Source: Phycisphaeraceae bacterium (GTDB lineage: Bacteria > Planctomycetota > Phycisphaerae > Phycisphaerales > SM1A02). From it: a stretch of 64,000 nucleotides of DNA. A program made the translations under genes and the position numbers. How positions within the stretch are numbered: the first letter of the stretch is position 1; each line of letters opens with the position of its first letter. Shown here piece by piece: positions 45,805-51,813 of this stretch. Under the pieces are notes generated by a model. The model was not told the DNA's origin and did no database searches. It saw only the letters and a program-made list of their open reading frames with translations. The stretch lies in assembly GCA_019636755.1 (NCBI GenBank), contig JAHBWZ010000001.1, positions 186,001 through 250,000 on the forward strand, given 5' to 3'.

Positions 45805-48800
45805 TCAATGGAAGTCACGCGATCGGCTCCGGACGTGCGCCCATGCCCGGCCCAGGTCCTCCAGACGCCGGACGATCAGGTGCACCACGTCACCGTCCCG
45901 CTCCACGTGCCCTTCCGCCCGCAGCACCGTGGCCCGGCGTGCCGCCGCGCGGAAGCGCCGGTAGACCGCGGGCCGGATGAGCAGGTTGGCCGTTCCCGTC
46001 TCATCCTCCAGCGTCATGAACACGATGCCCTTCGCCGTGGACGGGCGCTGCCGGACCAGGACCATGCCCGCCACGCGCAGGAGCCGACCCGTCGGCGCCC
46101 GCTCGGGACTGCGCAGCAGGGCGGCCTCGCTCGTCGACCGTCGCTCCAGCATCGGTCTGAGGAAGGACATGGGGTGGGCCCGCAGGGTCAGCGCGATCGC
46201 GTCGTAGTCATGCACCACCTCCTCCCACGCCGTCGGGCGCGGAAGCGCGGCGCCATCGCCCGCCTGCGCGCACGACGATCGCCCCCCCGCCCCGCTCTCC
46301 GGCGCTGCAAAGAGGGGCAGCGGCTCGTCGCGCCATGACTGGACCATCCAGAGCGCCCGGCGCCGATCCAGCCCCAGTGATCGCAATGCATCGGCCGCGG
46401 CAAGCCGCCGCAGCGCCCCGACCGGCACACCGCTCGCGTGTCGAAGCGGCTCCAGCGCCGTGAACGGTCCGTGCCGCCGGACGGCGTCGACGATCCGCTC
46501 CGCATGCGCACGCTCCAGTCCGCGAACCAGCCGGAGGCCAAGACGAAGCGCCGGAAAGGTGGCAGACCCGTCGAAGGTGCGGGGTGTCGTCGGTGCCGGC
46601 GGAGCGTGGACCGGCTCGCACGCCCACGCGCTGGCGTTGACATCGATCGGGAGCACGCTGACGCCGTGCGACTGCGCATCGCGGATGATCTGCGCCGGCG
46701 CATAGAACCCCATGGGCTGACTGTTGATGAGCGCCGCCGCGAAGACGGCCGGATGGTGCCGCTTCAGCCACGCCGAGACGTACACCAGCAGCGCGAAACT
46801 GGCGGCGTGCGACTCCGGAAAGCCGTATTCACTGAAGCCCTCGATCTGGCGGAAGCACCGCTCGGCGAACCCGGCGCCCAGGCCGCGGTCGATCATGCCC
46901 TGCCGGAACTTCTCGCGGAAGCGCTCGATCGCGTTGCCCCGACGCTTCCACGCCGCCATCGCCCGCCGCAGCGCATCGGACTCGCCCGGCGTGAACCCGG
47001 CACCGACCACCGCCAGCGACATCGCCTGCTCCTGGAAGAGCGGCACGCCCAGCGTCCTGCCGAGCACGCGTTCGATCTCCGGCGACGGGAACATGACCGC
47101 CTCCTCGCCCCGCCGCCGGCGCAGGTACGGATGCACCATGTCGCCCTGGATCGGGCCCGGGCGGACGATCGCCACCTCGATCACCAGGTCATAGAAGGAC
47201 CGCGGACGGAGGCGCGGCAGCATGGACATCTGGGCGCGGCTTTCAATCTGGAAGACTCCCACGGTATCTGCCGCACAGATCATGTCGTACACCAGGGGAT
47301 CCTCCGGAGGCACGCCCGCCATGTCCAGCGGCGCCCCGTCTGCTGCGGGACGGAATCCCGGCGGCCCGGCATTGAGCGTGTCCAGTGAGCGCCGGATGCA
47401 CGAGAGCATGCCGAGCCCCAGCAGGTCCACCTTGAGCATGCCCATCGCCTCGAGGTCATCCTTGTCCCACTCGATGACCGTCCGGTCCGCCATCGCGGCG
47501 CGCTCGATGGGCACCAGTTCATCCAGCCGGCGCCGCGCGATGACGAAGCCGCCGACGTGCTGCGAAAGATGCCGTGGAAAGCCGATGATCTCCGCCACCA
47601 GCGATGCGAAGCACCGGCACGCCGGCGCCTCCGGGTCCAGTCCGAGTTCCCGGAAGCGGGCGGGATCCACCTCCCGGCTGCGCCACCAGTCCAGGTTCCG
47701 CGCGATCCGGTCCACGAGATCCCGCGAGAATCCGAGGACGCGACCCACCTCCCGCACCGCGCTGCGCTCGCGCCAGGTGATCACCTCCGCCGTCAGCGCC
47801 GCGCGATCCCGGCCGTAGGTCCGGTAGACGTACTGGATCACCTCCTCGCGCCGTTCATGTTCGAAGTCGATGTCGATGTCCGGCGGCTCATCGCGTTCCC
47901 GGCTGACGAACCGCTCGAAGAGCAGGTCGATGCGCTCCGGGTCGACCGCCGTGATGCCCAGGCAGAAGCAGACCGCCGAGTTCGCCGCGGCGCCGCGGCC
48001 CTGGCAGAGGATGCCGCGTGAGCGCGCGAACCGCACGATGTCATGCACGGTCAGGAAGTAGGGCGCATAGCCGAGTTCCCCGATGAGCGTGAGTTCATGC
48101 GCCAGCAGCGTCCGGGTGCGATCCGGGATGCCGGCCGGGAAGCGCCCGGCGGCTCCGGCCCACGTCAGCGCCGCAAGGTGGGCATCGGGCGTCACGCCGG
48201 GCGGGCACACCTCGTCCGGATACTCGTAGCGGATCGACGCCAGCGAGAAGCCCGCCGCCATCTCCGCCAGGTCCAGCGTCCGGTCGATCGCGCGGCGGCC
48301 CGCCGCACCGCGCGCGCCGAAGCACCGCTGCACATCCTCCGGATCGCGCAGGAACCGCTGCGCATTCGGAGACAGGCGGAAGCCCGCCTCGTCCAGCGTG
48401 CAGCCGCGGCGGATGCACGTCAGGACATCGAGCATCCGCCGCCGCGCTGGATGGTGATATCGCACGTCGCCCAGCGCAGCCGGCGGCACACCGACCGAGC
48501 AGGCGAACGCCACATGGCGCTGCCATCGCCCGTCATCACGGCCGTCGAACCGCGGCGACGAGCCGATCGAAAGCGCCGCCCCGCCCCCGCGGAGGCGTTC
48601 GACCGCGTCCGCGAGCCCGGCCCCCGGCGCATCGTCCGGCAGCAGCGTGATGAGCAGGCCTTCGCGATGCGCCGCAAGATCATCGACGGCGAGCCGGTAC
48701 GTCCCCTTGGCCGCGCGCTGCCTGCCGATGCTCAGCATCCGGCAGAGCCGCCCGTAGGACGGGAGATCGCTCGCATGCACCACCACCCGGATCGGATCAC

Positions 48801-49221
48801 GGCAGACCGCGCCGTTCTCCACGGTCGATGGGCGCGACGGCCCCTCCGCCAGACTGCCCGGTGCGAGCGTGATCTGCGCACCGACCAGGAGCGGAATGCC
48901 CGCCTGCCGCGCCGCCACGTGCGCGCGCACGACGCCCGCCAGCGAACCGTGATCGGTGACGGCGACGGCGTCGTGGCCCAGCGCCGCGGCGGTCTCGACC
49001 AGTTCATCGGGATGACTGGCCCCCCTCAGGAAACTGAAGTTGGTGGTGACCTGCAGGTCCACCCAGCGCGGCGGCCGTGGTCGGCCCGTGGTCGCCGCCG
49101 CATCGCGCACCGCGGCGCGGGACCCGGGCGCACCGGCCACGTGGTGCACGTCCGCGGCGCCGGTGCGGCGCAGCGGGTGGGGATGAGAGGCGGGTTCCTG
49201 CGGATGCGGCATCGTGCGCAC
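45805..49221 (-). CDS. dnaE2: Error-prone DNA polymerase III alpha, DnaE2 (ImuC)
   Basis: The protein has 1138 residues, normal for DnaE2. A PHP domain starts LQVTTNFSFLRGASHPDELV with AVTDHGSLAGVVRAHVAA. The polymerase core shows GRGAAANSAVCFCLGIT and DEPPDIDIDFEHERREEV, which carries the catalytic aspartates, and HVGGFVIARRRLDELVP. The C-terminal OB fold is present. DnaE2 carries out mutagenic bypass of DNA damage with ImuA and ImuB. The GTG at 49221 is 12 bp past the imuB stop; ATG 49212 is an alternative start. It is the last gene of the operon. Confidence 0.93.
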   Translation of the reverse strand: MRTMPHPQEPASHPHPLRRTGAADVHHVAGAPGSRAAVRDAAATTGRPRPPRWVDLQVTTNFSFLRGASHPDELVETAAALGHDAVAVTDHGSLAGVVRAHVAARQAGIPLLVGAQITLAPGSLAEGPSRPSTVENGAVCRDPIRVVVHASDLPSYGRLCRMLSIGRQRAAKGTYRLAVDDLAAHREGLLITLLPDDAPGAGLADAVERLRGGGAALSIGSSPRFDGRDDGRWQRHVAFACSVGVPPAALGDVRYHHPARRRMLDVLTCIRRGCTLDEAGFRLSPNAQRFLRDPEDVQRCFGARGAAGRRAIDRTLDLAEMAAGFSLASIRYEYPDEVCPPGVTPDAHLAALTWAGAAGRFPAGIPDRTRTLLAHELTLIGELGYAPYFLTVHDIVRFARSRGILCQGRGAAANSAVCFCLGITAVDPERIDLLFERFVSRERDEPPDIDIDFEHERREEVIQYVYRTYGRDRAALTAEVITWRERSAVREVGRVLGFSRDLVDRIARNLDWWRSREVDPARFRELGLDPEAPACRCFASLVAEIIGFPRHLSQHVGGFVIARRRLDELVPIERAAMADRTVIEWDKDDLEAMGMLKVDLLGLGMLSCIRRSLDTLNAGPPGFRPAADGAPLDMAGVPPEDPLVYDMICAADTVGVFQIESRAQMSMLPRLRPRSFYDLVIEVAIVRPGPIQGDMVHPYLRRRRGEEAVMFPSPEIERVLGRTLGVPLFQEQAMSLAVVGAGFTPGESDALRRAMAAWKRRGNAIERFREKFRQGMIDRGLGAGFAERCFRQIEGFSEYGFPESHAASFALLVYVSAWLKRHHPAVFAAALINSQPMGFYAPAQIIRDAQSHGVSVLPIDVNASAWACEPVHAPPAPTTPRTFDGSATFPALRLGLRLVRGLERAHAERIVDAVRRHGPFTALEPLRHASGVPVGALRRLAAADALRSLGLDRRRALWMVQSWRDEPLPLFAAPESGAGGRSSCAQAGDGAALPRPTAWEEVVHDYDAIALTLRAHPMSFLRPMLERRSTSEAALLRSPERAPTGRLLRVAGMVLVRQRPSTAKGIVFMTLEDETGTANLLIRPAVYRRFRAAARRATVLRAEGHVERDGDVVHLIVRRLEDLGRAWAHVRSRSRDFH

Positions 49222-49233
49222 TCGGTGCGAAGG

Positions 49234-50958
49234 TCACGCCCATTCGCCGTGCAGGAACCACGCGTCGCCTGACCCGTCCCGCCCATGCACCGGCGCCGGA
49301 TGCGGTGCCGGCGGCGCGTCCGATCCGGGCGCGCCGCCCGGCCCGATCCCCGGCCACGCGGCGCGGAAGATCCACAGCGATCGCCCCCCCTCCTCGCGGA
49401 TGCGCCGGTACTCGCGCTCCGTGGGCAGCGTCTCCGGGACCCGCCACCACGGCAGCGAGAGATACTCCGGCGCATCGATCGCGACCACCGATCGCGCGTG
49501 CGCACTCAGGCAGATGCGGCGCGGCACGCCATCGCCATCACGTTCAAGAACCGGCAGCGGCTGCGGCCGATCGAGGAGACGTGACGGCCGGGCAGTCCGC
49601 GGCGTCGCATCCGCACACGTTTCGCGCATCGGCGCGGTGGCACGCGGCCACGCCCAGGCATATCCGGGCGCGCGGCCCGCGGATACATGCACCGTGCGCA
49701 CCGCGTCATCCCCGCAGCATGCGACGAACCGATCGATGAGTTCTCCGCGCCGGCGGTCGTCCGTCGTCATGCCGGGATCGGCATCCACCTGCGGCGCGGA
49801 GGCCAGCAGTCCGGGCAGCGCGTCCTGGGCGGCCACCCGTGGTGCCGCGGCTCGGACGCGGACCCGGATGCCTTCCACACCGAAGCCGAGGTTGGCCCGC
49901 TCCATCACCGGACGTGCGATGATCGCCATGTGCCTGGCGCAGACGACCGGCCGCGCGAATCGGACAGGCAGTTCGAGCGGCGATGCATCGGCACGCCGCA
50001 GCACAACCACCAGCGCCCGCACGGCGACGCCGCGCCGGGCGATCCGGTCGGCAAGGTCGGCAAGCAGTCCGTGCAGCGCCGTTTCGATCGCCACGGGGTC
50101 CCGGACCGGTCCGCTGAAGCATCGCTCCACCACGATCGCCTCGACCGCCGGCACCGGCTCCAGCGGATCGTCGCGCACCCCCAGCGCGCGATCGAGTCGC
50201 GCAAGCGCCCGCCCGCCGATCCGGGAGACGAGTTCCGCACGCGGCAGGCGGCGCAGATCCGCCATCGACCGCACACCGACTTCCTCCAGCACCCGGGCTG
50301 CCGCGTCGATCTCGACCGCATCGCGCCGGCGCATCTCCGCCGTGACCATGCCATCGGAGGATCCGAACGGTGCCAGAACGGCCCGGACCGGCAGCGGATC
50401 GAGCGAGGCCGCCTCATCACCCGGCGGCACGATCGGCACCGCCGCGCGATCCGCCGCGCCGTGATACCGCGCCAGTGCGGATGCGCAGAGCGGCGTGGAG
50501 GCAATCGCACCCGCACCGGTCAGGCCCAGGCGGCGCACACGATCGAGGACGCGCGCCGCCAGCGCCGCCTCGCTCACGACCAGCCGGTGCATCCCGGTGA
50601 TGTCCAGAAGCACGCCGTCGGGCGGATCGACCGCGACCCGTGGCGTGAATCGATGGCACCACCGTGCAAGGCGCCGCAGCGCGCGGAGATCGGCGGCGGG
50701 ATCATCATCGGCCACCTGCGGTTCCTCCGGCAGCAGCGCCCGTGCTTCCACCAGCGTCATCCCCGGCGTGACGCCGGATGCCATCGAGCGCGGACAGGCA
50801 TGCGCGATGCGCCGCACGCCTGCGTGCATCTCGACGACCAGCCGGGCCGATGCGGCCCGGGAGCCGGATCGTGCGCGCCGCGCGGACGCCTCTCGGGCAT
50901 GGCTGAACCGGCGCTCAATCGGCCACAGCGGCAGCCAGAGCGACAGAATTCGATGCAT
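49234..50958 (-). CDS. imuB: ImuB, Y-family polymerase-like mutasome hub
   Basis: From ATG 50958 the protein has 574 residues. It begins MHRILSLWLPLWPIERRF, the usual ImuB start (LWLPxxxxER), and continues RIAHACPRSMASGVTPGMTL, DITGMHRLV and GAGAIASTPLCASALARYHG, a Y-family fold that, as in other ImuB proteins, lacks the full set of catalytic acidic residues (position 7-like Asp is absent). ImuB binds the sliding clamp and brings DnaE2 to lesions. The C-terminal part holds a GDAWFLHGEWA end typical for the family. It overlaps imuA by 44 bp. Confidence 0.88.
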   Translation of the reverse strand: MHRILSLWLPLWPIERRFSHAREASARRARSGSRAASARLVVEMHAGVRRIAHACPRSMASGVTPGMTLVEARALLPEEPQVADDDPAADLRALRRLARWCHRFTPRVAVDPPDGVLLDITGMHRLVVSEAALAARVLDRVRRLGLTGAGAIASTPLCASALARYHGAADRAAVPIVPPGDEAASLDPLPVRAVLAPFGSSDGMVTAEMRRRDAVEIDAAARVLEEVGVRSMADLRRLPRAELVSRIGGRALARLDRALGVRDDPLEPVPAVEAIVVERCFSGPVRDPVAIETALHGLLADLADRIARRGVAVRALVVVLRRADASPLELPVRFARPVVCARHMAIIARPVMERANLGFGVEGIRVRVRAAAPRVAAQDALPGLLASAPQVDADPGMTTDDRRRGELIDRFVACCGDDAVRTVHVSAGRAPGYAWAWPRATAPMRETCADATPRTARPSRLLDRPQPLPVLERDGDGVPRRICLSAHARSVVAIDAPEYLSLPWWRVPETLPTEREYRRIREEGGRSLWIFRAAWPGIGPGGAPGSDAPPAPHPAPVHGRDGSGDAWFLHGEWA

Positions 50959-51778
50959 CGTCCCACTCCAGAGTCCATCGGTGCGCGCCGCTGTCATCGA
51001 CCCCGCCGCCCTGCGGTGCCCGCCGGCGCACCAGCGAGAGGCACCATGCCGGCGCGGCCGACCCGGCACCGTGCGCGGGCGCTCGGCGCACGACCCACTG
51101 CGTTGCGCAGGAAAGCGGGCGCATCGCATCCCGCTCCGGGCGCGCCAGCAGGATCAGCGGTGCACGGCCGGCCAGCGCGCAGCGCTCGCCCGCCAGCTGC
51201 AGGCGCCTGGATGCGGTCAGATCAACACCCTCGCCATCCATCACGATCACCGCGCATCCGCCCGTCTCCAGCGCGGTTTCCGCGGCACGGCTTCTGCCGG
51301 CGGCATCCGGCGCGTCCACCATCACACTCGACCGCACCAGCGACAGATCGACCGGGCGACATCCCTCGGCGGACTCATCATCGATCCCCATCCACCCGCC
51401 GCCGTCATCACCACGGCGCCCCGCACACGCCGGATCGGTCCGGTCTGCACCACCGGGCCGCGGCATGAGCACCCATGGCGCCGGCCGGACGCGGGCACCG
51501 ATCCAGATCACCGCGCCACCGCAGTCCGCGGCCCGCGCAGCAAGGTGCGCCAGCACACAGAGCGGCGCCGCCCATGGCTCGCCATCCAGCCCGATGAACA
51601 CATGCACCGCGCCGCGGACCAGGCCGCCGTCCAGCACCGCGTCCACGGCGGGCCAGCCCGTCGATGCAGAGCGCCACGGGCCGCACGTGCGCACCGCCGG
51701 GGACAGCCCGCCTGCCAGCGGACTCTCGATCGGCCGGATCCTGGCCCGGAGCATGTCGATCACCGCCGGCCGCGCCAT
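50915..51778 (-). CDS. imuA: ImuA-like RecA-related mutasome protein
   Basis: From ATG 51778 the protein has 287 residues. The core reads WPAVDAVLDGGLVRGAVHVF, CGGAVIWIGARVRP and APLILLARPERD, a RecA-like layout with a degenerate Walker A, as in ImuA/SulA-like proteins of imuA-imuB-dnaE2 cassettes. The end (RWTLEWDDASNSVALAAAV) matches the family's final strands. It is the first gene of the operon and its promoter carries a GAAC-N7-GAAC element. Sequence conservation is low in this family, so context adds much to the call. Confidence 0.78.
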   Translation of the reverse strand: MARPAVIDMLRARIRPIESPLAGGLSPAVRTCGPWRSASTGWPAVDAVLDGGLVRGAVHVFIGLDGEPWAAPLCVLAHLAARAADCGGAVIWIGARVRPAPWVLMPRPGGADRTDPACAGRRGDDGGGWMGIDDESAEGCRPVDLSLVRSSVMVDAPDAAGRSRAAETALETGGCAVIVMDGEGVDLTASRRLQLAGERCALAGRAPLILLARPERDAMRPLSCATQWVVRRAPAHGAGSAAPAWCLSLVRRRAPQGGGVDDSGAHRWTLEWDDASNSVALAAAVAD

Positions 51779-51784
51779 GGCCGG

Positions 51785-51813
51785 ATGATAGGGTTCTGTT
51801 CGGGTTCCCGCAA
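51785..51813 (-). promoter_or_regulatory. imuA promoter containing a LexA-like direct repeat
   Basis: On the minus strand TTGCGG (51813-51808) and TATCAT (51790-51785) are 17 bp apart, and the ATG follows six bases later. Inside the spacer lies GAAC-N7-GAAC (51807-51804 and 51796-51793), the layout of the LexA box known from Alphaproteobacteria (GTTC-N7-GTTC on the other strand). A third GTTC copy (51798-51801) lies between. A repressor bound here would block the promoter, fitting SOS control of the mutasome. Confidence 0.6.

Follow-up and report, generated by a model that had tools for sequence, protein, structure and literature searches.

The imuA promoter of this planctomycete most probably carries the native LexA operator of its order, through which LexA would repress the mutasome genes imuA-imuB-dnaE2. 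One motif is common to the lexA, recA and imuA promoters of the genome and is conserved in its relatives, and the genome encodes an intact LexA. We infer LexA as the binding protein, the direct-repeat geometry of its site, repression, and induction. LexA-type control of the mutasome had been proposed in an initial annotation of the same DNA. The regulator and the direct-repeat layout of that proposal stand, the box being common to lexA, recA and most relatives, while its register does not: the operator predicted here (51803-51786) is shifted from it by six bases.

Mutasome genes and the imuA promoter

The genes follow each other in the order imuA, imuB and dnaE2 (Table 1). ImuA matches are found in 30 of the 61 genomes compared, this one included. 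The true start of imuB is probably located further in than that of the listed ORF, and imuA itself is probably leaderless.

Table 1. Mutasome genes and elements of the imuA promoter in the window (the whole analysed stretch of 64,000 nucleotides)
Feature	Position	Strand	Basis or remark
imuA	50915..51778	minus	NF033429 ImuA, 22.6 bits, E 8e-5, under the cut-off of 150
imuB (Y-family)	49234..51129	minus	PF00817 38.3 bits, PF11799 31.2 bits, both over cut-off
dnaE2 / imuC, error-prone polymerase	45805..49221	minus	NF004225 1333 bits, cut-off 939
Putative -35, TTGCGG	51813-51808	minus	Sequence; weak, 3/6 vs TTGACA
Spacer, GAACCCGAACAGAACCC	51807-51791	minus	17 nt
-10, TATCAT	51790-51785	minus	5/6 vs TATAAT
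imuA ATG	51778-51776	minus	6 nt past the -10
Predicted operator half-site 1, CCGAACA	51797..51803	minus	Matches conserved half-site of relatives' recA, lexA-operon and imuA promoters
Predicted operator half-site 2, CCTATCA	51786..51792	minus	11 bp from half-site 1; overlaps the -10
Outer-GAAC register, GAAC-N7-GAAC	51807-51793	minus	GAACs at 51807-51804 and 51796-51793; likely incidental register

The promoter anatomy given in the initial annotation was accurate to the base when counted on the minus strand; a consensus promoter scanner called no promoter at this site. The annotation had placed a GAAC-N7-GAAC repeat between the two hexamers. The spacer contains three GAACs, and the middle one, which had been overlooked, sits in CCGAACA (51803-51797), the half-site conserved at other SOS promoters of the order.

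The GAAC-N7-GAAC pattern was found four times in the window, where 1.05 matches would be expected, and one of 100 shuffles reached four. It occurs 166 times in the 4.11-Mb genome and 15 times when read backwards, an excess of about elevenfold that we guess to be due to codon phase. The annotation had named the same repeat at lexA and recA as a check, and here the literal reading fails, as the pattern is absent from the upstream regions of the genome's own recA (600 nt) and lexA (1100 nt). Across the sampled genomes it was present in 1 of 56 recA and 5 of 59 lexA upstream regions (both counts with the own genome) and in 5 of 28 imuA regions (own genome excluded). With 166 genome matches and none at the own lexA or recA, the pattern was dropped as a predictor of the box.

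Derivation of the box

The recA, lexA and imuA upstream regions were collected from the genome under study (G000; 4.11 Mb, 20 contigs, completeness 99.4%) and from at most 60 relatives, of which 36 belong to its family and 24 more to its order. From the 61 genomes 56 recA and 59 lexA regions were used, fragments and misses being omitted; 27 of the 29 imuA loci of the relatives entered the joint motif, the remaining two (L036 and L049) having no usable upstream DNA. The dyad ACCG-AACA was present in 35 of the 56 recA regions (1.0 expected) and the dyad TAAC-N8-AACA in 24 of the 59 lexA regions (0.6 expected). Seeds for EM models were set by hand after inspection of the dyads and promoters, and the models resulted in TT.GG.TAACATA..CCGAACA.AA for lexA and G..ATCCTA.CA.A.ACCGAACAT for recA.

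The joint motif common to recA, the lexA operon and imuA is CC[T/G]A[A/T]CR-N4-CC[G/T]A[A/T]CA. Its half-sites are repeated directly at a period of 11 bp, and at most lexA sites GG, not CC, precedes TAAC. It was trained on 140 promoters with the own genome excluded, and its window and seed were picked after the imuA sites of the relatives had been viewed. In these training data at least 12 bits were reached by 50 of 55 recA, 56 of 58 lexA and 26 of 27 imuA promoters, compared with 8 of 420 shuffles of relatives' promoters (highest 17.0 bits). The box is degenerate, since its strict form CCKAWCR-N4-CCKAWCR is matched exactly in only 14 of 56 recA, 3 of 59 lexA and 9 of 28 imuA regions. Taken alone the strict form was also too loose and was rejected for this purpose: the genome has 10 exact matches, 144 in total with at most one mismatch, and 10 when the form is read backwards. 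The joint PWM was applied to the retrieved loci and to the window, and the whole own genome was scanned with R1, a sequence-only model from 94 sites, none of them from the own genome, chosen by hand with no fixed rule from 130 sites of at least 15 bits.

The predicted operator at imuA

The operator predicted at imuA reads CCGAACA-GAAC-CCTATCA. Its 16.8 bits with the joint motif are the best score in the 64-kb window, 7.8 bits ahead of the next one (9.0), and neither strand of 3 Mb of DNA generated by a third-order model of the window contained a place of at least 16 bits. A motif from recA only, with no imuA in its training, likewise gives this register the top score in the window, 15.7 bits, followed by 9.5. 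The register TGCGGGAACCCGAACA had been preferred by a first 16-bp core PWM (6.7 bits) and was given up, the wider joint motif scoring it at 1.8 bits versus 16.8 for CCGAACA-N4-CCTATCA.

Of the own core sites at recA, the lexA operon and imuA, the last is the weakest. A motif from lexA only scores it at 0.8 bits, and the best R1 match in the window, at 51805-51785 (8.4 bits, E 0.32), lies below the genome-wide list at E<=10. These values, along with the 17.0 bits of the top shuffle, would suit a chance match at imuA, the box of the order being real and imuA outside its control. We consider this very improbable, given the lead of the site within the window, the absence of an equal in the simulated DNA and the position of the box in the expected promoter, whose half-sites and spacing to the ATG are shared by imuA promoters of relatives.

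The most similar promoters are those of imuA in G059, G014 (CCGAACA-TCGA-CCTATCA) and G010. The half-site CCTATCA is present in all three as well as in G036 and in the held-out loci L361 and L363. By hand count, 33 of 40 positions are identical between the G059 promoter (CTTGCCGGAACCCTAACAAATACCTATCATCCTGGCATGG) and the own one (CTTGCGGGAACCCGAACAGAACCCTATCATCCGGCCATGG), and counterparts of the -35 stand at the same 17-nt spacing in G059 (TTGCCG) and G010 (TTGCCA). The arrangement TATCAT-6nt-ATG is kept in G059, G014 and G010, whose ImuA proteins match the own one at 35%, 44% and, over a short stretch, 57%, respectively. In many other relatives it is the first half-site, not the second, that overlaps a -10-like element (TACCCT); different half-sites over the -10 in different relatives suggest two placements of the operator relative to the promoter.

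The outer GAACs could be taken instead for an operator of alphaproteobacterial type, perhaps one that arrived with the cassette. Two perfect GAAC cores 11 bp apart are indeed found at imuA (51807-51793), in the layout of the GTTC-N7-GTTC box described in PMC3323433, and the GGAACCC around the first of them is also present in G059. Nevertheless, this register scores -7.4 bits with the joint motif (-13.0 with the earlier core PWM), against the 16.8 bits of the predicted operator. Its second GAAC is lost in G059 and G010, the exact repeat is as rare at relatives' recA, lexA and imuA, and as consistently missing at the own lexA and recA, as described above, and the native LexA would be required to recognise a different box at imuA. 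We therefore hold an operator in the outer register to be very improbable. Whether the box had been transferred with the cassette or was native had been left open in the initial annotation; the evidence favours the native box, because lexA and recA use the same one.

The box in the genome and its relatives

With the joint motif, trained without the own genome, the own recA, lexA-operon and imuA sites score 26.6, 23.6 and 16.8 bits, respectively. The R1 scan of the own 4.1-Mb genome gave two matches at E<=10, one ahead of recA (C16:9167) and one ahead of the gene preceding lexA (C1:352853). No box was found at the own uvrA (best score -1.7 in 600 nt upstream). At least 12 bits were reached by 63 of 69 held-out lexA loci (80 minus 11 duplicates of training DNA; some near-copies, e.g. 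L265, L267 and L269, remain); shuffles did so in 5 of 345 cases and downstream regions in 1 of 68. The same level was reached by 18 of 19 held-out imuA loci and by 6 of 190 shuffles; these 19 are the new ones among 30 loci retrieved, 116 of 301 genomes having a match.

A part of this conservation may come from the promoters themselves. One half-site overlaps the -10 at the recA and imuA promoters, and a sigma-70-type -10 alone yields part of the motif, so that conserved -10 elements (TACCCT, TATCCT, TATCAT) with no repressor might be all that is seen. Against this stands the half-site CCGAACA, which is located outside the -10 and is strongly conserved at a fixed 11-bp spacing. Moreover, the whole-genome R1 scan finds recA and the lexA operon only, not promoters at large, and the downstream control regions carry the box in the single case given above. 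Core-promoter conservation alone thus appears extremely improbable, and a LexA operator is the reading we follow below.

Second, weaker copies of the box are present on the opposite strand at the own lexA (18.3 bits) and recA (15.4 bits); at lexA the copy results in an overlapping TGTTCGG-N10-CCGAACA. With these copies, the bound unit may be the direct repeat alone or a larger array.

Seven of the 30 R1 matches given as loci in relatives sit outside the trained promoters, and all seven were inspected. They lie before umuD-umuC (L210), between umuC (379 nt away) and an ORF resembling peptidyl-prolyl isomerases (L228), beside a dCTP deaminase gene (L226) and at the start of an integron integrase gene (L230, G057:C21; TIGR02249, 382 bits); at L208, L220 and L227 no evident SOS gene adjoins the match. 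The box at L230 makes it possible that integrons in this order are under SOS control. In the own genome there are nine further exact matches to the strict form, and one of them, beside genes of no proven SOS role, scores above imuA. This best one (L178, G000:C1:60360-60377, GTACCCGAACGGATCCCGATCATCGC, 19.9 bits) is flanked by an aspartate/ornithine carbamoyltransferase gene and a divergent ORF that is MmcB-like by eye and gave no Pfam or NCBIfam matches.

Among recA upstream regions from other classes of the phylum, 7 of 28 reached at least 12 bits, compared with 18 of 280 shuffles; this is only suggestive of the box in those classes. The recA upstream region of G084 (L326), from outside the order, contains CCGAACA-N4-CCGAACA-N4-CCTAACC with an 11-bp period on the strand opposite to recA. 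Judging from this locus, the box may predate the order.

LexA and the gene preceding it

The whole genome has one LexA_DNA_bind match, and the same protein has a Peptidase_S24 domain. Residues A90-G91, S128 and K166 are invariant among 15 aligned sequences; following textbook knowledge, we take A90-G91 to be the cleavage site and S128 and K166 the catalytic pair of LexA. With these domains and residues present, the predicted protein appears to be a cleavable LexA. Its recognition-helix region (SKVT.FEH) is nearly invariant in the same 15 sequences, and such a near-constant recognition helix fits a constant operator. Compared with LexA sequences of solved structure, the own LexA has a one-residue gap just before this helix.

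The box at the lexA operon stands ahead of a small ORF that precedes lexA (L001:831-1496, G000:C1) and is also present in relatives. In 22 of 24 printed loci it runs into the start of lexA. Its N-terminus contains GPG (as in PLVMLGPGGDY) in 16 of the 24 and GPS in two more; on inspection of the ORFs a looser motif was thus seen in 18 of the 24, and a strict text motif found 2 of 59. Pfam searches with the own ORF and that of L077, and an NCBIfam search with the own one, gave no matches. The small gene is a candidate for an unknown SOS gene and is perhaps a division inhibitor.

Proposed mechanism

The following scheme is drawn from the established SOS pathway and from the promoter anatomy. The predicted operator overlaps the putative -10 of an SOS gene, imuA. 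A single LexA would sit in the spacer between -35 and -10 and over the -10, where it would exclude RNA polymerase and shut off imuA-imuB-dnaE2. Upon DNA damage RecA would become activated and LexA would cleave itself, setting the promoter free. Derepression would then give a mutasome message that is leaderless or nearly so, because the -10 stands six bases before the ATG.

In a wider view, which we favour somewhat, Phycisphaerales use an undescribed direct-repeat LexA operator CCTAACR-N4-CCGAACA (11-bp period), independent of that of Alphaproteobacteria and in places (at recA and lexA of this genome) doubled to form inverted arrays. It would repress the leaderless imuA-imuB-dnaE2, umuDC, integron integrases and the small gene before lexA. 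With a box defined for an entire planctomycete order, the SOS regulon of the group would become predictable, and mutagenic repair, plus an integron integrase in at least one relative, would fall under SOS control.

Comparison with known LexA operators

According to PMC3108266, the E. coli motif is not recognised by LexA of Planctomycetes, and in the open-access literature, as far as its texts were accessible, no published LexA box for Planctomycetota was found. The alphaproteobacterial LexA box, e.g. in Caulobacter, is a GTTC-N7-GTTC direct repeat according to PMC3323433, PMC8565304 and PMC9578287. It shares with the present box the direct repeat, the 11-bp period and the GAAC-like core. In contrast, the half-site here is longer, the second core being preceded by CC and followed by A; the first core mostly reads TAAC or TATC, and lexA and recA rarely have an exact GAAC-N7-GAAC. 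LexA is a standard case of a regulator that changes its binding site in evolution, and the layout of the distant Alphaproteobacteria in this order would allow convergence to be tested against common descent.

The CGAACA half-site resembles the Gram-positive box CGAAC-N4-GTTCG, and a palindrome CCGAACA-N2-TGTTCGG in the recA promoters of two relatives (L094 and L095) suggested a box of that type. It was ruled out: GAAC-N4-GTTC occurs in only 2 of 56 recA, 2 of 59 lexA and 0 of 28 imuA upstream regions and is absent from 51785-51813. In Verrucomicrobia, which belong to the same PVC group, the LexA motif of Erill et al. 2016 is reportedly a GAAC-based palindrome, TGTTC-N4-GAACA, whereas here a direct repeat is found. 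Outside Proteobacteria a direct-repeat LexA operator, TTACACATATTTTWTACATA, is described for Balneolaeota, and several independent origins are ascribed to such operators, in PMC7739468. The Balneolaeota operator is alike in layout and differs in its half-site and phylum. In our judgement, the native LexA operator of this order is new in its sequence and of a known kind.
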